Positions 2,278 through 22,869 of a DNA stretch of 37,949 bases are shown piece after piece. A model generated the notes under the pieces. The model saw nothing but the letters and a program-made list of their open reading frames with translations, did no database searches and was not told the origin of the DNA. The stretch is from Pseudomonadota bacterium (GTDB taxonomy: Bacteria > Chloroflexota > UBA5177). Every line of letters begins with the position of its first letter. The stretch's first letter is position 1. The DNA lies in contig JAJPIP010000004.1 of NCBI GenBank assembly GCA_021324655.1, forward strand, positions 1 through 37,949, read 5' to 3'. The position numbers and the translations under genes are program-made.

Positions 2278-3597
2278 ATGACACAGACCACGGAACGCAG
2301 AAAGGGCCGCCGTCCACCGCTCGTCCTGGATCTCGAAACCGCAGACTGGTCGGCTCGCGGTGCGGTGTCGGCGACCGCAGCAGACCGCACGATCCCCGTG
2401 CAGCGAGCCCTGCCCGGTGAGCACGTGATTGCCGAAGTGCACCGCGGCCGCCCCTGGCGCGGCATTGCCCGAGACGTCCTGCGCCCCGCCCCAGAGCGCA
2501 TCGAGCCGCCGTGTCCGTACTACGCCCGGGATTGTGGAGGCTGTCAGTGGCAGCACATGACGTACGACGCGCAGGTCATAACGAAGCGGCGGCTGGTCGA
2601 CCGCGAGATGGAAAGGGCGGGTGTCGATATCCGAGTCGGGCGCGCGGAACGGATGAAGGAACCATGGCGCTACCGCCGTACCGCTGCGTTGGCCATTGGC
2701 TGGGAGGCCGGGTTTCGTCCGCTGCTGCGGCGGGGTATCGTCGAGATCCATGATTGCCCAATCTCTCACTCATCGATCGGCGGCCTGGCGGACGAGATCA
2801 ACCGGCTGTTGCGATCCGGGGCGATACCGAACTATCACGGCAGAGTCTGGCTCGACTGCACCGTGGTCGGTTCGGATACGGAGCCGGCACTGCAGGTGCT
2901 GATTCAGGGGATCAGCGGCCTGACGCTCGAAGAGCATCCCGAATTGCCGGACGTGGCGCAGCGCGTGGCGTCATTGCCTGGCGTCGCGTCCGTCGCGTAC
3001 CGTCACCGCTCGGGCCGGCCGGTCCCGCTCGTCGGTGATCTGATGAGCCGGATCGAAATCGGCGGCCGCGACATGTGGCTGCCGGCCGGCTCGTTTGTTC
3101 AGACCAACCTGGTCATGGTTCCCCATGTCATGCAACGGATGCAGGCGCTGCTCCAGGAGCGGGCCGCCACAGAAGCGGCTGATATTTATGGAGGCGTGGG
3201 GACCTTTGGATTGACTCTCGCGCCGTCAGTCGGCCATATGACACTGATCGAGCTGGATCCACTGGCGGTCGAGGCGGCGCGCCGCACGGCGGGAGAGTGG
3301 AGACTTGAGAACGTCTCCTTTGTGAGCAGGCATGCGGAACGGGCTCTCCCCGAGCTCCCGCCACTCGATGCCGCCATCGTGGATCCGCCCCGCTCCGGTC
3401 TCGGAGTCACCGTCACGTCCGCTCTCACCGCGAATCGCGTGCCGCTCATCCTGTACGTGAGCTGTGCGCCGCCGTCACTCGCCGACGATCTGGCCGCCTT
3501 CCAGGGGGACGGTTATCGCATCACGTCGTTGGACATCTTCGACTTTTACCCGCAGACCTATCACGTCGAGAGTCTGGCCGTGCTCGAGCGATGTTGA
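2278..3597 (+). CDS. rlmD: 23S rRNA/tRNA m5U methyltransferase, RlmD/TrmA family
   Basis: This SAM-dependent RNA uracil-C5 methyltransferase has 439 residues. A TRAM-like N-terminus (about 30-70) precedes the iron-sulphur cysteines C79, C86 and C89 (CPYYARDCGGCQWQH) and the fourth ligand C160 (HDCPIS), as in 4Fe-4S RlmD enzymes. The SAM-binding loop reads DIYGGVGTFGL. Motif IVDPPRSGL and the catalytic Cys C396 in YVSCAPPS complete the active site. Whether the target is rRNA (RlmC/RlmD-like) or tRNA (TrmA-like) cannot be decided from sequence; the symbol is by closest motif resemblance. There is no clear Shine-Dalgarno; TAGTAT lies at 2261-2266, 11 nt before the ATG, so the mRNA may be almost leaderless. 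The stop overlaps the maf start by 7 nt. Confidence 0.88.
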   Translation: MTQTTERRKGRRPPLVLDLETADWSARGAVSATAADRTIPVQRALPGEHVIAEVHRGRPWRGIARDVLRPAPERIEPPCPYYARDCGGCQWQHMTYDAQVITKRRLVDREMERAGVDIRVGRAERMKEPWRYRRTAALAIGWEAGFRPLLRRGIVEIHDCPISHSSIGGLADEINRLLRSGAIPNYHGRVWLDCTVVGSDTEPALQVLIQGISGLTLEEHPELPDVAQRVASLPGVASVAYRHRSGRPVPLVGDLMSRIEIGGRDMWLPAGSFVQTNLVMVPHVMQRMQALLQERAATEAADIYGGVGTFGLTLAPSVGHMTLIELDPLAVEAARRTAGEWRLENVSFVSRHAERALPELPPLDAAIVDPPRSGLGVTVTSALTANRVPLILYVSCAPPSLADDLAAFQGDGYRITSLDIFDFYPQTYHVESLAVLERC

Positions 3598-4196
3598 TTC
3601 TGGCGTCGGGCTCGCCCCGCCGCCAAATTCTGGTGCGTGCGTTGGGCGTGCCGGCCGAGATCGTGCCGAGCGACGCTCCAGAGCGCCGGGCACGCGGTGG
3701 AGAGGACCCGACACAGTACGCGCTCGACGTCGCACGCGCCAAGGCGCAAGCAGTAGCCCGAGTCCGTCCCGGTGACACCATCCTGGCGGCCGACACGGTG
3801 GTCGCCGTGGGGGGAGAGATCCTGGGCAAGCCGGCTGATACCGAGGACGCCCTGCGCATGCTCCGCCTCTTGCGGGGCCGCGTGCACCAGGTGACGACCG
3901 CCGTGGTGGTGCGTTGCGGCGAGACCGTCTGGGACGGCGCGGTCACCAGTGACGTGCGCATGCGCCCGTTCAGTGACGAGGAAGCACGCGACTACATCGC
4001 CACGGGTGAGCCGATGGACAAGGCCGGCGCGTATGCCGTTCAGGGATTCGGAGGGACGTTTGTCGAGTCGGTCGACGGTTGCTACCACGCCGTCGTCGGA
4101 CTGCCGTTGTGCCTCGCCGCATCCCTCCTTCACCGTTGCGGGATCCCGGCGACGCTGCCGGCGGACACGTCGTGCGCCTCGTGTGCGCCGACGTGA
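3591..4196 (+). CDS. maf: Maf-family nucleotide pyrophosphatase
   Basis: The 201-residue Maf/YhdE-type protein is expected to hydrolyse dTTP, UTP or modified nucleoside triphosphates to monophosphates, a house-cleaning role also linked to septum control. Visible family motifs are ASGSPRR at the N-terminus, AADTVV and LGKP in the middle, and DKAGAYAVQG near the C-terminal third. Length is typical (about 190-210). The ATG sits inside the 3' end of the methyltransferase gene (7-nt overlap), so translation is probably coupled. The last 20 residues, including a CASC motif, extend past the conserved core and may be lineage specific. Confidence 0.92.
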   Translation: MLILASGSPRRQILVRALGVPAEIVPSDAPERRARGGEDPTQYALDVARAKAQAVARVRPGDTILAADTVVAVGGEILGKPADTEDALRMLRLLRGRVHQVTTAVVVRCGETVWDGAVTSDVRMRPFSDEEARDYIATGEPMDKAGAYAVQGFGGTFVESVDGCYHAVVGLPLCLAASLLHRCGIPATLPADTSCASCAPT

Positions 4197-4226
4197 ATCC
4201 ACACGGTACACACGATTTTTGTGACC

Positions 4227-4235
4227 TTGTCCACG
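4227..4235 (+). promoter_or_regulatory. single DnaA-box-like 9-mer upstream of dnaA
   Basis: TTGTCCACG matches the high-GC form of the DnaA box (TTRTCCACA) at eight of nine positions and lies 130 nt before the dnaA-like start. It could serve autoregulation. It is alone: I see no cluster and no AT-rich unwinding element, so it does not make this an origin. A chance match is possible. Confidence 0.3.
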
Positions 4236-4332
4236 CCCTACCGCCGAATCGCCGCACGCTGCCGAATCTTACCGATTTATGTCCGCAATCCAGTGGTAGT
4301 TATCGTCAAGTAGGAGCACCCCGCGTGCAGTA

Positions 4333-4361
4333 CCCTTGAGTGCGAAAAAGCACTTCGAGGG
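4333..4361 (+). promoter_or_regulatory. stem-loop covering the dnaA Shine-Dalgarno
   Basis: Positions 4333-4343 pair with 4350-4361 to give about 11 bp (5 bp, one bulged T at 4355, then 6 bp including one G-U) closed by a GAAAAA loop at 4344-4349. The 3' arm contains GAGGG (4357-4361), the only Shine-Dalgarno-like sequence before the ATG at 4366. The folded form would hide the ribosome binding site. There is no T-run after it, so it is not an ordinary terminator. A regulatory role is inference. Confidence 0.55.
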
Positions 4362-4365
4362 CTGA

Positions 4366-6027
4366 ATGACGGAATCCGCCGACGTCTATCGGGTGCGCGC
4401 GGTTCCTCCTGCGGATCGTCGTGCCCCCGGGGATATTGCGCTGCTGGCGTGCGATCGCTGCAGCGTGGAGAGCCTGCCCTGGGAGTTGCGCACTTTCGGG
4501 AAGCAGTCTATTTGCGGCAGGTGTTACGGCGCCACGCTGGAGTTGGCCGGCGCTGCCATCCGTTCCATGCCGGCGGATGGAGCAAGGCGATGCGCTCAGT
4601 GTCGCGCCATGCGTGACCCGCAATTCGGGAGCGCCTGGTGCGGAGCGATCGAGCTCGGCGATGAGCGGGCCCTGATCTGTGCCAACTTTGTCTCCTTGCG
4701 CAGCGAAGAGCTGCGCCCCCGTCTCAACGGGGGCAGGAGCCGCGCGCTGGAGGTCTGGCGCGACGTCACCGACGAACTGCGGACGGCGCTCGGAGAAGCG
4801 AACTTCGGCACCTGGTTTGGCCGGGTCGAAGTACTGTCCCTCGATGGGGACGAGCTGACGCTCTCGGTTCCCGACGAGTACACCGCGGATTGGTTATCGC
4901 AGCGCTTCGGCCCCGTGATCCACCAGGCGTTCGTCGCGCGCGGCCATGCCGGCATCGAGCCCGTCTACCTCGTCGGCGAGGTCGGCGAGCGTCCGCCCCT
5001 TCCCTCGGAGGTGGTGCGTGCCAAGGTCGGGTTCAATCCACATTACACATTCGAGGAATTCGTGGTCGGCGCGGGGAACCGGCTGGCTCATGCCAGCGCG
5101 CAGGCCGTGCTCCGCAAGGTGGGCACCGCCTATAACCCGCTGGTGCTGTATGGCGGGGTCGGCGTCGGCAAAACGCATCTTTTGCAGGCCATCGGACAGG
5201 CGGCCATCGACGGTGGCAAGGACGCCCTGTACGTCACCTCTGAGATGTTTACCAATGAGCTCATCCTGGCGATTCGCGACGGGGTGACGCAGGACTTCCG
5301 CGATCGCTACCGCACGGTGGACTTTCTCCTCATCGACGACGTGCAATTCATTGCCGGCAAGGAAGCGACGCAGGAGGAATTCTTCCACACGTTCAACGCT
5401 CTCCATCAGTCCGGCAAACAGATCGTCATCACCAGTGATCGGCCGCCCTCCGAGCTGCGCGGGCTGCAGGACCGTCTCGTTTCTCGCTTTACCTGGGGAA
5501 TGGCAGCGGACATGCAGGCCCCGGATCTCGAGACCCGGATGGCGATCTTGCGGCGGAAGGCGGCACAGCGTGCCCTGCCGGATGACGTGCTCAGCGCCGT
5601 GGCGACGCGGATTGGGAGCAATGTTCGGGAGCTGGAGGGCACGCTGAATCGTGTGCTGGCGCAGGCCGACTTGCTGGGCACGGAGCCCAGCCTCGACGTC
5701 GTCCGCGGTGTGCTCGGCGACGGCGTCGTCCCGGGCAGTGCTCGTCCCGACGCGATTCTCGAGGCAGTGGCGTCCTACTTCCGTATCAGGGGATCGGAGC
5801 TATGCGGGCCGCAGCGCGAACGTGCCATCGCCTACGCGCGTCAGATCGCCATGTACCTGCTGCGGGAGGAGTCCAAGCTCTCTCTGCTCGAAGTCGGCAA
5901 TCATCTCGGCGGACGCAATCACAGCACAGTGATTTACGGCTGCAGCAAGATCGAGAAAGAGGTCAAGCACAAGGGCCGCGTCCGTCAGGACATCCTCGCC
6001 GTCAAGCAGCTCTTGTACGGCTCATAG
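4366..6027 (+). CDS. dnaA: DnaA replication initiator with two N-terminal Cys4 modules
   Basis: From about residue 127 this 553-residue protein is a normal DnaA: domain I (about 127-200), a short linker, AAA+ domain III with Walker A GGVGVGKT (about 263-270), Walker B LLIDDVQF (about 321) and LVSRFTWG with the arginine finger, and helix-turn-helix domain IV (about 455-553) ending in GNHLGGRNHSTVIYG. DnaA binds origin boxes and opens the duplex. Two features are odd. First, residues 1-120 add two four-cysteine modules, C29/C32/C50/C53 and C76/C79/C92/C105, likely zinc binding. Second, the box-contact motif has Asn where most DnaAs have Asp (GRDHTTV). The gene is not beside dnaN, recF or gyrB. 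A hairpin covers its Shine-Dalgarno. It could be the sole DnaA or a second paralogue. Confidence 0.9.
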   Translation: MTESADVYRVRAVPPADRRAPGDIALLACDRCSVESLPWELRTFGKQSICGRCYGATLELAGAAIRSMPADGARRCAQCRAMRDPQFGSAWCGAIELGDERALICANFVSLRSEELRPRLNGGRSRALEVWRDVTDELRTALGEANFGTWFGRVEVLSLDGDELTLSVPDEYTADWLSQRFGPVIHQAFVARGHAGIEPVYLVGEVGERPPLPSEVVRAKVGFNPHYTFEEFVVGAGNRLAHASAQAVLRKVGTAYNPLVLYGGVGVGKTHLLQAIGQAAIDGGKDALYVTSEMFTNELILAIRDGVTQDFRDRYRTVDFLLIDDVQFIAGKEATQEEFFHTFNALHQSGKQIVITSDRPPSELRGLQDRLVSRFTWGMAADMQAPDLETRMAILRRKAAQRALPDDVLSAVATRIGSNVRELEGTLNRVLAQADLLGTEPSLDVVRGVLGDGVVPGSARPDAILEAVASYFRIRGSELCGPQRERAIAYARQIAMYLLREESKLSLLEVGNHLGGRNHSTVIYGCSKIEKEVKHKGRVRQDILAVKQLLYGS

Positions 6028-18772: not shown

Positions 18773-18832
18773 TTGCGTTTACGCCTAACCTTCGCTACGC
18801 TCTTGATGACCCCGAATCATCTGGAGCGATAC

Positions 18833-21472
18833 TTGGCGACACCCGCGTACCGTCCCGATGACGGGGCGCTACCGCAAGACATAGAGGCGGAGCAGGCTGT
18901 CCTGGGCAGCCTGCTCATCGATCCCCATGCGATCGAGCGGGTCGCCTCTTTCCTGCGGCCGGATGACTTCTTCCTGCCGGTCAACGCCGAGATTTTCGGT
19001 AGCATGCTGGCGCTGTACGAGCACAACCGGCCGGCCGATACCGTCATTCTGGCCAACCATCTGCAAGCGCAGGATCGCCTGGATGACGTGGGCGGCGTTG
19101 CGTACCTGGCGTCGCTCTCCGCGCTGGTGCCGACCTCGATCAACGTGGAGTACTACGCGCGCATCGTCGAGCGCCTGGCCGTGCTCCGGCGGCTCGTGGA
19201 GGCGGGCACCCGTATCTCGGCGATCGGACGGGATGAGCGCTATGAGGCAGACGAGGCGCTGGAAGAGGCGGAGCGTGTCCTCTTCGACATCTCGCGCCTC
19301 CGCGTCACGCGCGACTTCGAGCCGCTGGCTGAGGTCCTGAATCAGGTCTACGAGAAGATCGACCACATCCACAACTCGGACGAGTCCATTACCGGCGTCA
19401 CGACCGGTTTCGTGGATCTCGACCGCCTGACGAGCGGTCTGCAGCGCTCTGATCTGGTCATCCTGGCCGCTCGGCCCAGTATGGGGAAGACCTCGCTGGC
19501 CCTCAACATCGCCCACGCGATTGCCACTAAGGAAAAGCTTCCCGTCGGCATCTTCAGCATCGAGATGGCCGCCGAGCAGATTGCCCAGCGCCTGATGTCT
19601 CTGCAGTCGCAGGTCGAAATGCAGCGCATTCGGAGCGGCCGCATGACCGACGCCGACTGGGAGCGGCTCGTCCACGCCGTCGGTCAGCTGTCGGAGACTC
19701 CGATCTTCGTCGACGATACGCCCGGCCTCTCTATCGTCGAGATGCGCAGCAAGGCGCGACGCCTGCACGCCGAGCAGGGACTCGGGCTCCTCATCGTCGA
19801 CTACCTTCAGCTCATGCAATCCACGACGACCGAAAGCCGCGTGCAGGAGATTTCGGCCATCTCGCGCGCGCTCAAAGGGGTGGCCCGCGACCTCGACATC
19901 CCCGTCCTCGCCCTCTCTCAGCTCTCCCGCGCCCCCGAGCAGCGACCCAATCACGAGCCAATGCTGTCGGATCTTCGCGAGAGCGGTTGCCTGACCGGAG
20001 ACACGATGGTGTACTTGTCAGACCAGGGGACGTATCGCCGAATTGACGAGCTGGTCGGCGACGCCCATCATCGCGTGCAGGCTCTTGACACGGCATCGTG
20101 GCGCATGAAGGAGTGCCGAATCAGCCGTGCCTTCTCGACCGGCCGCAAGCTCGTGTACCGGCTAACGACGCGTAGCGGCCGCACCATTCGGGCGACCGCG
20201 AACCACCAGTTCCTGACGATCGATGGATGGCATCCCCTTGCTCAGTTACAGCCGGGACGGGAAATCGCGTTGCCGCGTCGGACGATCAATGGGTTGCCGC
20301 CCTCGATGGCTGATGCGGAACTCTCGCTTCTGGCTCACTTGATCGGTGATGGCTGTACCTTACCGCGCCATGCCGTCCAGTACGTGACGACCGATCCTGC
20401 CCTTGCGCGCCGAGTCGCCGACGATGCACGGGCTCTCTTTGGAGATCGCGTCGTGGCGAGGATTCATGAGGAGCCCGCGGCGGGACGCGCGGTCCGATAT
20501 GTGGACTTAGCCGCGGCCGAGCACCTGACCCACTCCGTTCGCAATCCGATTGCCGAATGGTTACGCAGCCTGGGGGTATTCGGATTGCGCTCCTGGGAAA
20601 AGCGTGTGCCGAACAAAGTATTTGCGCAGCCGGATAGCGGTGTCGCGCTGTTTCTGCGTCACCTCTGGGCAACTGACGGGTGTGTTCGTCTCGTCGAGCG
20701 GCACGCGCCCGCCGTCTACTACGCGACATCGAGCGACGGCCTCGCTCGGGATGTTCAATCACTTCTGCTCCGACTCGGCATCATGGCCACTCTGCGAAGA
20801 GTTGCACAGAGTGGGAAGGGACGTGATCAGTTCCACGTCGCCGTGACGGGCAAGCCCGATCTCCTCCGGTTCCTCGATGTGGTTGGAACCGAAGGAGAGC
20901 AGAGGACGCGCCACGGCGGGTTAATTCGGCACGCGTTGGAGGGGACCGATGCGAATACCAACCGGGACATCATTCCCAAGGCGACGTGGACGAGTATTGT
21001 TCGTCCTGCCATGGCCGAGGCGGGCGTAACGACACGCAAATTGCAGGGTGCAATAGGGACAAGTTATTGCGGCTCGACACTCTACAAGTCCAATTTGAGT
21101 CGAGAGCGGGCTACTCGCGTCGCCACCGCCGTGGCATCCGAAACACTGGCCCGGCTCGCGCAGAGCGATGTTTATTGGGACCAAGTCGTGTCTATCGAGC
21201 CGGGCGGCGAGGAGGAGGTCTTCGACCTGACAATCGAGGGGCTTCATAACTTCGTCGCCAATGACATCGTCGTGCACAACAGCATTGAGCAAGACGCGGA
21301 TGTCGTCATGTTCGTTTACCGCGATGTCATCTACAACGCCGACACCGAGCGGCCGCATGTGGCAGACATCATCGTCGCCAAGCATCGCAACGGTCCCACC
21401 GGCAAGGTGCACCTGTTCTTCCAGGATTCCCTGATGAAGTTCGCCGATCTGAGCATTCGCGATGGCGACTGA
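18833..21472 (+). CDS. dnaB: replicative DNA helicase DnaB with intein
   Basis: The precursor has 879 residues from TTG 18833. DnaB unwinds DNA at the fork as a hexamer. The N-terminal domain begins PQDIEAEQAVLGSLL; the RecA-like domain has Walker A ARPSMGKTS (about 213-221), VGIFSIEMA and LLIVDYLQLM. At C386 an intein interrupts the sequence and the helicase resumes at S817 with SIEQDADVVMFVYRD. The spliced protein would be 448 residues, a normal length. TTG 18833 has GGAG at 18823-18826 with 6-nt spacing; ATG 18806 and TTG 18773 are in frame upstream but lack a ribosome binding site. A dnaD-like and a dnaI-like gene follow by overlap. Confidence 0.95.
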   Translation: MATPAYRPDDGALPQDIEAEQAVLGSLLIDPHAIERVASFLRPDDFFLPVNAEIFGSMLALYEHNRPADTVILANHLQAQDRLDDVGGVAYLASLSALVPTSINVEYYARIVERLAVLRRLVEAGTRISAIGRDERYEADEALEEAERVLFDISRLRVTRDFEPLAEVLNQVYEKIDHIHNSDESITGVTTGFVDLDRLTSGLQRSDLVILAARPSMGKTSLALNIAHAIATKEKLPVGIFSIEMAAEQIAQRLMSLQSQVEMQRIRSGRMTDADWERLVHAVGQLSETPIFVDDTPGLSIVEMRSKARRLHAEQGLGLLIVDYLQLMQSTTTESRVQEISAISRALKGVARDLDIPVLALSQLSRAPEQRPNHEPMLSDLRESGCLTGDTMVYLSDQGTYRRIDELVGDAHHRVQALDTASWRMKECRISRAFSTGRKLVYRLTTRSGRTIRATANHQFLTIDGWHPLAQLQPGREIALPRRTINGLPPSMADAELSLLAHLIGDGCTLPRHAVQYVTTDPALARRVADDARALFGDRVVARIHEEPAAGRAVRYVDLAAAEHLTHSVRNPIAEWLRSLGVFGLRSWEKRVPNKVFAQPDSGVALFLRHLWATDGCVRLVERHAPAVYYATSSDGLARDVQSLLLRLGIMATLRRVAQSGKGRDQFHVAVTGKPDLLRFLDVVGTEGEQRTRHGGLIRHALEGTDANTNRDIIPKATWTSIVRPAMAEAGVTTRKLQGAIGTSYCGSTLYKSNLSRERATRVATAVASETLARLAQSDVYWDQVVSIEPGGEEEVFDLTIEGLHNFVANDIVVHNSIEQDADVVMFVYRDVIYNADTERPHVADIIVAKHRNGPTGKVHLFFQDSLMKFADLSIRDGD
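19988..21280 (+). other. DnaB intein with LAGLIDADG homing endonuclease domain
   Basis: This 431-codon in-frame insertion starts with Cys (CLTGDTMVYL, block A) and ends VANDIVVHN, followed by Ser as the first C-extein residue. Block B has GRTIRATANHQFLTIDGWH with the TxxH pair, and block F/G has FDLTIEGLHNFVANDIVVHN. The endonuclease part keeps both acidic LAGLIDADG-like helices, LLAHLIGDGC and FLRHLWATDGC, each with its catalytic Asp. Terminal Cys, penultimate His, final Asn and following Ser are all present, so splicing should work. The insertion point RESG/SIEQDAD is the one used by the Synechocystis DnaB intein. Base composition looks somewhat less GC-rich than its surroundings, as expected for a transferred element. 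Confidence 0.93.
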
Positions 21473-22079
21473 TGCCGCGATCTCCGTCACGGAGGACTTC
21501 TTCCGGCTGACGGTGCCGCGCATCACCGACCTGTCGGAGCTGAAGCTCGTCCTGCAGCTGCTGTATCTGACGGAGCGCCGTGGCGGGCCAGTGCCGGAGA
21601 GTGTGCTGCTGAGTGCACAGATTCCCGGGTCCGTGGTCGGCCTCGACAGCCCCGAGCCTGCCGAGGTCCGAATGCGCCGGGTCATCGAGCGAGCAGTGGC
21701 CAACGGCACACTCATTCGCCTCACGACGGCCGGCGCGGTCGCCTTCCTTCCCGGAACAGAGCGGTTTCGCCGCCAGGTGGATCAGGCGCGGGACGGCGAG
21801 CCAGCCATGCCGGGGCGTGCCGGCATCGCCGATGCCGACGACGTCGCCGTCTATCGCCCCAACGCTTTTGCCCTGTATGAGCAGAACATTGGGCCGCTGA
21901 CGCCGCTGATCGCGGAGCGCATCCGGGATGCCGAGCGAACCTATCCGCGGACGTGGATCGAGCGAGCCATTGAGGAAACAGTTGGCTACAATAAGCGCAA
22001 TTGGCGCTACGTGGAGGCGATCCTGGCGCGGTGGGAAGAGATAGGGGGTCCGGATGAGGCGAGTGGGCGACGTTCTTAA
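21462..22079 (+). CDS. DnaD-like primosome protein
   Basis: The 205-residue protein ends in a DnaD/DnaB-II domain (PF07261 type, about 135-195): YEQNIGPLTPLIAERI followed by GYNKRNWRYVEAILARW. The N-terminal 110 residues look like a winged-helix region. In Bacillus, DnaD bridges DnaA and the helicase loader DnaI during primosome assembly. Its position between dnaB (10-nt overlap) and an AAA+ helicase loader (26-nt overlap) fits that role strongly. Interaction with the helicase is inference. Confidence 0.85.
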   Translation: MATDAAISVTEDFFRLTVPRITDLSELKLVLQLLYLTERRGGPVPESVLLSAQIPGSVVGLDSPEPAEVRMRRVIERAVANGTLIRLTTAGAVAFLPGTERFRRQVDQARDGEPAMPGRAGIADADDVAVYRPNAFALYEQNIGPLTPLIAERIRDAERTYPRTWIERAIEETVGYNKRNWRYVEAILARWEEIGGPDEASGRRS

Positions 22080-22869
22080 GGACGTCCGGCTGCAGCGCGC
22101 CGGTGAGGTGCCTACTCCGCCCGCCGATGCGTGTCCGCATTGTCACGGCGCCGGCTATCTCCGCTACGACGTTTCGGTCGACGATCCGCGCTTCGGCCAG
22201 TTGGTGGCGTGTGAGTGCACCGTCCGCGCTCTGGAGAGACGGCGCATCGAGCGCCTGGTCGAGCGCAGCAACCTGGGTGCGCTCCGCCGCCTCACCTTCG
22301 ACAGCTTCATCCTCAAAGTGCGGGAGGGGACGCCGCCGGTGCGGACTCCCGATGCGGCATGGCGCATCGCACGCAGCTATGCCGAGAACCCCCACGGATG
22401 GCTGGTTCTGTACGGCGCCTTCGGGACCGGTAAGACCCACCTGGCCGCTGCCGTTGCCAATCACCGCATCGAGGCGGGGCATCCCGCCGTGTTCATCGTC
22501 GTGCCCGACCTGCTGGATCATCTCCGGTCGACGTTCAGTCCGAGCAGCGAAGTCACCTACGACGAGCTCTTCGAGACGGTTCGCGACACGCCGCTTCTGA
22601 TCCTGGATGATCTCGGCACACAGACGTCGACGCCGTGGGCGCAGGAGAAGCTGTACCAGATCCTCAATCACCGCTACAACACTGCCCTTCCGACCGTGAT
22701 CACCACCAACCTGTCTCCCGACGAGATCGAACCACGTTTGCGGTCGCGTCTGGGCGATTCCCACCTCTCAAAACTGGTGGAGATTCGCGACATCGACAAG
22801 CGGTTGGGAGTGACCCACGAGGCGGGACGCCGTACCACCCGCCGCCCGCGCGACGATCACCGTCTCTGA
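22054..22869 (+). CDS. DnaC/DnaI-like AAA+ helicase loader
   Basis: This 271-residue ATPase resembles DnaI/DnaC. The N-terminus has a zinc-ribbon-like set, CPHCHGAGYL and ACEC (about residues 28-53), as in DnaI. The AAA+ domain follows with Walker A GAFGTGKTHLAAA, Walker B LLILDDLGTQ, sensor 1 VITTNLS and the Arg-finger region PRLRSRLGD. It is expected to load DnaB onto single-stranded DNA. The ATG overlaps the DnaD-like gene, with GGGGG just upstream. IstB-type transposon ATPases are relatives, but the zinc ribbon and dnaB operon context make a helicase loader more likely. Confidence 0.88.
   Translation: MRRVGDVLKDVRLQRAGEVPTPPADACPHCHGAGYLRYDVSVDDPRFGQLVACECTVRALERRRIERLVERSNLGALRRLTFDSFILKVREGTPPVRTPDAAWRIARSYAENPHGWLVLYGAFGTGKTHLAAAVANHRIEAGHPAVFIVVPDLLDHLRSTFSPSSEVTYDELFETVRDTPLLILDDLGTQTSTPWAQEKLYQILNHRYNTALPTVITTNLSPDEIEPRLRSRLGDSHLSKLVEIRDIDKRLGVTHEAGRRTTRRPRDDHRL

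Follow-up and report, generated by a model that had tools for sequence, protein, structure and literature searches.

DnaA is usually encoded by a single-copy gene, and the protein starts at domain I. The stretch of Chloroflexota DNA analysed here (the window, 37,949 nucleotides) holds a dnaA gene whose product, hereafter Cys-DnaA, carries approximately 115 residues before domain I, and the locus raises the question of whether this cysteine-rich extension is a genuine part of the protein and what role such a DnaA might play. The gene and its parts are the following:

4357-4361, plus strand: GAGGG, Shine-Dalgarno-like, 4 nt 5' of the ATG at 4366 (direct sequence reading)
4366-6027, plus strand: Cys-DnaA, a DnaA paralogue with a cysteine-rich N-terminal extension, 553 residues (uninterrupted frame, Pfam, TIGR00362)
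4447-4563, plus strand: module 1, residues 28-66, C29-x2-C32-x17-C50-x2-C53 and then a predicted helix, resembling a treble clef (cysteines invariant in 6/6 orthologues; AlphaFold2)
4585-4689, plus strand: module 2, residues 74-108, C76-x2-C79-x12-C92-x12-C105 (cysteines invariant in 6/6 orthologues)
4744-4965, plus strand: DnaA domain I, residues 127-200 (PF11638, E=5e-13)
5032-5718, plus strand: AAA+ domain III, residues 223-451 (PF00308; alignment to B. subtilis DnaA, 8btg)
5746-6024, plus strand: DnaA domain IV, residues 461-553, with recognition loop GRN518HSTV(I/L)Y (PF08299)

The first-pass annotation had described one frame that runs from residue 1 into a complete DnaA, and a single ORF does lead from the ATG at 4366 to the stop at 6027 (553 codons), taking in domains I, III and IV. 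Pfam places DnaA_N at residues 129-189, Bac_DnaA at 224-381 and Bac_DnaA_C at 461-529, and the DnaA equivalog model TIGR00362 gives the protein 452.9 bits (cut-off 343.9), with a match that spans residues 131-548 only. The pair of four-cysteine modules proposed to precede domain I is present at exactly the positions claimed, C29/C32/C50/C53 and C76/C79/C92/C105, and comparison with orthologues, together with the divergence of codon positions, identifies it as real, translated and conserved.

The orthologue set comprises six proteins from six genera, distributed over two families (five from f1, one from f2) of a single order. All eight cysteines of the extension are invariant in the six proteins, an outcome with a chance probability of approximately 1e-5 (hypergeometric; invariance extends to 27 of the 99 gapless columns); C480 and C526, further along the chain, vary. 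Identity among orthologues lies between 41 and 69% over the extension, and in comparisons between the window and f1 members it amounts to 59-72% in module 1 and 63-83% in module 2, where the extension is best conserved, against 69-74% in the AAA+ domain and 39-47% in domain I, which is the least conserved domain of Cys-DnaA (27-47% between orthologues). In conservation, both modules come close to the AAA+ domain and exceed domain I. In each module, third codon positions have diverged further within family f1 than first and second positions, evidence of translation and of selection acting on the extension. It had been envisaged that close relatives might start internally, near residue 120, or that the cysteines might not be conserved; such an internal start is not common to the orthologues, all of which begin with [AG]TG-Thr/Ala-Glu at residue 1, and the second possibility is contradicted by the eight invariant residues.

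The extension probably binds zinc. The C-x2-C-x17-C-x2-C spacing of module 1 is that of a classic Cys4 site, and in the AlphaFold2 model residues 21-60 (pLDDT 76-87) fold into two hairpins and then a helix, which begins at the second pair of cysteines, the arrangement of a treble clef. Module 2 is modelled with pLDDT below 50, and the mean pLDDT is 57.8 for the extension and 58.2 for the full protein; confidence is low because the alignment is only six sequences deep. A Foldseek search of the extension model against the PDB returned 140 matches, mostly of the treble-clef type (LIM, RING, FYVE and ClpX zinc domains), of which none is significant (none at E below 0.001); the ClpX zinc domains are matched over almost their full length (TMt 0.66-0.68) with E about 0.9. 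As a homologue of module 1, the ClpX zinc domain was rejected at an hhalign probability of 3.8%, and zf-C4_ClpX (PF06689) has no Pfam match in Cys-DnaA; without profile homology, ClpX serves as an analogy of arrangement only. PDB profile matches to YfiR, cytochrome and LIM entries were also insignificant. ClpX-type zinc domains do occur outside ClpX elsewhere in the genome to which the window belongs (G000: C72:110459-110734, C78:27879 and C18:24199), one protein having two copies.

The C-x2-C-x12-C-x12-C pattern of module 2 departs from the standard spacing of a zinc ribbon, and a module so atypically spaced could hold another metal centre, such as an iron-sulfur cluster. HiPIP proteins, with the pattern C-x2-C-x14-16-C-x13-C (C-x2-C-x14-C-x13-C in 1cku), were considered as homologues and discarded, given the differing 2-12-12 spacing, the lack of a HiPIP match in Pfam and an hhalign probability of 7.5% to 1cku. 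No meaningful Pfam match was obtained for module 2; DUF7685 (PF24734) reaches 17.1-17.6 bits for the window protein, below its gathering cut-off of 27, with a best E-value of 0.0014 among the six members. The zinc motif of YabA, H-x-C-x11-C-x2-C (PMC4705661), has a different ligand pattern and is absent from Cys-DnaA.

The AAA+ domain of Cys-DnaA, aligned to B. subtilis DnaA (8btg) and to the orthologues, keeps Walker A K269, Walker B D324/D325, the arginine finger R374 and sensor II R421. In B. subtilis, DnaA captures single-strand bases of the origin via N187, I190, I193, R202 and E228 (PMC10721633), and the base-capture residues N297, I300, I303, R312 and E338 are likewise kept in Cys-DnaA, I300 being replaced by Val in f2. 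With its ATPase and base-capture residues retained, Cys-DnaA looks able to oligomerise and to open DNA. The recognition helix, compared with the motif GRDH[ST]TV, reads GRNHSTV in f1 and GRDHSTV in f2, and its remainder is intact. The Asn that had been noted in place of the usual Asp is thus correctly read, Asn518 being present in 5/5 f1 copies, whereas the f2 orthologue has Asp; among 67 Chloroflexota DnaA-like sequences, Asp is found in 56, and Asn only in the five f1 copies of Cys-DnaA. At a second position, Tyr524 replaces the usual His in all six orthologues. The Asp position corresponds to D433 of E. coli DnaA, which contacts base 7 of the box (PMC8235120). A box-contact loop lacking Asp-His altogether (GRSASTV or DRTAATV) is seen in some other Chloroflexota DnaA proteins (L081, L086, L090 and L100, of family f9).

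Full-length orthologues of Cys-DnaA were recovered, among 61 genomes searched, from all four other genomes of the family (58-64% identity) and from one genome of a second family in the same order. A search of the extension against Chloroflexota, which had been suggested along with its discovery, gave matches in six of 400 sampled genomes and in none of the other 394; these six are all of the sampled genomes of the one order. When one conserved peptide was used to scan 84,980 GTDB species genomes, the same five relatives were recovered; such a single-peptide scan detects close relatives only, so that distant ones may exist. Four of its matches are labelled Chloroflexi (the MAGs LS_FP_2_bin.70, CRAIB_MAG58, RRmetagenome_bin17 and UBA5177), and the fifth, Centralia_MAG_67, is labelled Proteobacteria, yet clusters with the Chloroflexi-labelled MAGs. 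The carriers are uncultured soil-type Chloroflexota, and UBA4733/UBA5177 has been described as a class-level lineage of the phylum with very few genomes (PMC10608941). The viral contigs and plasmids searched held no relative of the extension. One relative has two further, very divergent DnaA-like proteins on a small contig, possibly a mobile element (G004:C28, L042; 7614-8753, plus strand, and 3235-4584, minus strand).

The first-pass annotation had also proposed looking for a second, standard dnaA elsewhere in the genome. One is found, without the extension, on the minus strand of contig C68 (G000:C68:61616-62947), so that Cys-DnaA is a paralogue and not the sole initiator. Five of the order's six genomes carry both types; the remaining one (G003, 84% complete) shows the cysteine form only. 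Each type forms one clade (ZN 100/99; standard 99/96); the first tree separates the two clades, yet by the AU test a joint clade remains acceptable (p-AU 0.85). Within the family, orthologues of the standard DnaA share 80-84% identity in the AAA+ domain and 81-85% in domain IV, versus 69-74% and 62-65% for Cys-DnaA. Five genomes have box-like sites 3' of the standard dnaA at near-fixed spacing (21 and 29 nt), directly after the gene:

L034, 7540-7611: box-like sites
L036, 5035-5093: box-like sites
L038, 4164-4193: box-like sites
L041, 8133-8170: box-like sites
L044, 8053-8110: box-like sites

These sites are a candidate origin or DnaA-binding locus, and both they and the slower evolution of the standard copy fit a role for the latter as the main initiator.

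Cys-DnaA is itself preceded by conserved sites:

4195-4203, plus strand: weaker box-like site GAATCCACA, containing TCCAC, 32 nt (about 3 turns) 5' of the first box
4227-4235, plus strand: DnaA box TTGTCCACG, 139 nt 5' of the start codon (TTKTCCAC[AG] in 5/5 f1 members)
4299-4310, plus strand: GTTAT[CG]GTCAAG element, a candidate -10 region with a putative promoter role (upstream-region alignment)

In all five f1 members a same-strand TTKTCCAC[AG] box lies at -139 to -171, and a second TCCAC site is located 32-33 nt upstream of it; a one-mismatch box is expected by chance in about 1% of cases in a given 35-nt stretch. The f2 orthologue has its box-like sites farther upstream. An origin adjoining the Cys-DnaA gene was considered and rejected, one strong and one weak box being present there and GC skew being weak and uninformative for placing an origin. 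Exact DnaA boxes form no cluster anywhere in the genome, and dnaN is located away from the Cys-DnaA gene.

The gene order ComEC-(rRNA methyltransferase-Maf)-dnaA-GT-MurI-TlyA-NADK-RecN is kept in both families, and this shared synteny indicates that Cys-DnaA has been vertically inherited. In G006, considered for an empty site, the contig ends at RecN. A dnaB-dnaD-dnaI cluster lies 13-18 kb downstream of Cys-DnaA in the window and in G001, and the same cluster is found downstream in G005. In the window, dnaB (18773-21472, plus strand) harbours an intein that includes an endonuclease domain of the LAGLIDADG type (residues 413-836, nt ~20009-21280; PF14890, PF14528), which is missing at that point in G001 and G005. 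Downstream of dnaB, at 21462-22869 on the plus strand, come a DnaD-like gene and one for a loader resembling DnaI/DnaC, whose ATPase domain is of the DnaA type. The three genes make up a helicase-loading set like that of Firmicutes, and G001 and G005 have it too.

The reading that we prefer, and to which we would give an even chance of being right, is that of a second DnaA, competent for unwinding and active alongside the standard protein, whose Cys4 modules provide a metal-stabilised platform for docking or dimerisation. Such a protein would bind DnaA-box-like DNA through its slightly altered recognition helix, would form ATP-dependent oligomers, either alone or mixed with standard DnaA, and could join in strand opening. 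Domain I is the usual docking domain of DnaA, and the two modules would form a small metal-stabilised domain joined directly to it, most likely a platform for dimerisation or partner recruitment, by analogy with the service that the N-terminal zinc domain of ClpX provides to its AAA+ ring. The gene is probably under DnaA control via its conserved upstream boxes, and the net effect would be that of a co-initiator or modulator which adjusts when the standard DnaA fires, and not of a replacement.

The metal centres could have a more active part. It is conceivable, if unlikely, that the two proteins are division-of-labour initiators of which one is metal-gated, Cys-DnaA reading a slightly different box and either firing a second origin or licensing or vetoing standard DnaA at a shared origin according to metal or redox state. 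A decidedly unlikely explanation places in one module, most likely module 2, either labile zinc or a [4Fe-4S] cluster, the loss of which would change oligomerisation and tie replication to oxidative or metal stress. The spacing of module 2, non-standard for a zinc ribbon and reminiscent of HiPIP (1cku), speaks for such gating, as does its rank as the best-conserved part of the extension; however, neither Pfam nor hhalign supports the HiPIP resemblance, and invariance of all eight cysteines is equally expected for purely structural sites.

DnaA is also a known transcription factor, and Cys-DnaA might mainly regulate genes through box recognition, its extension contacting RNA polymerase or a co-regulator. 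The substitutions in the recognition helix (N518 in f1 and Y524 in all six) and the pair of boxes in its own promoter region are consistent with this idea, which is nonetheless improbable: the single-strand capture residues, which a pure transcription factor should lose, are all kept. That Cys-DnaA could be the principal initiator of the order, with the standard copy as an accessory, is suggested by its distance of ~13-18 kb from the conserved helicase-loading cluster and by a local minimum of cumulative GC skew near the gene in G005, but the skew signal is weak, only one strong box adjoins Cys-DnaA, and it is the standard copy that is better conserved and followed by conserved box-like sites, all of which makes this arrangement very improbable. 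Lastly, other DnaA-like genes of unclear origin in a relative (G004:C28) could evoke a DnaA acquired recently from a mobile element or phage, or else a chance or artefactual in-frame extension; such an origin is hardly credible, given that six independently assembled genomes share extension, start and synteny, and that viral contigs and plasmids contain no relative of the extension.

With canonical DnaA (TIGR00362; B. subtilis 8btg, E. coli), Cys-DnaA shares domains I, III and IV and the catalytic and base-capture residues, and it differs in its 115-residue extension with two Cys4 modules, its short domain II, its changed recognition loop and the coexistence of a standard copy. Families f18 and f11 of the Chloroflexota also have two full-length DnaA proteins per genome (L022/L048, L023/L046, L033/L051, L085/L093 and L089/L091), but these belong to separate clades and are without cysteine modules. 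The zinc domain of ClpX (PF06689) is likewise a Cys4 domain (C-x2-C-x~19-C-x2-C) located N-terminally on an AAA+ protein, with a topology similar to that predicted for module 1, although ClpX has one module where Cys-DnaA has two, and the profile similarity is insignificant (3.8%); the zinc domains of ClpX form dimers and also bind adaptors (PMC9035409). YabA, a regulator of DnaA in low-GC Gram-positives, also employs a small metal-binding domain for replication-initiation contacts, its zinc domain bearing DnaA- and DnaN-contact surfaces (PMC4705661). This likeness is one of analogy only: YabA is a separate protein with an HCCC motif and a coiled-coil tetramer, whereas the modules of Cys-DnaA are fused to DnaA itself. 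No description of such a DnaA architecture was found in the open-access literature searched, which does not prove its absence.

An order-wide second DnaA that combines the full unwinding machinery with a conserved eight-cysteine domain and changed box contacts represents a natural experiment on initiator diversification. The extension hints at a second mode of action on replication or on DnaA sites that differs in recruitment or regulation, and Cys-DnaA allows one to ask whether the activity of DnaA can be coupled directly to a metal-bound domain.
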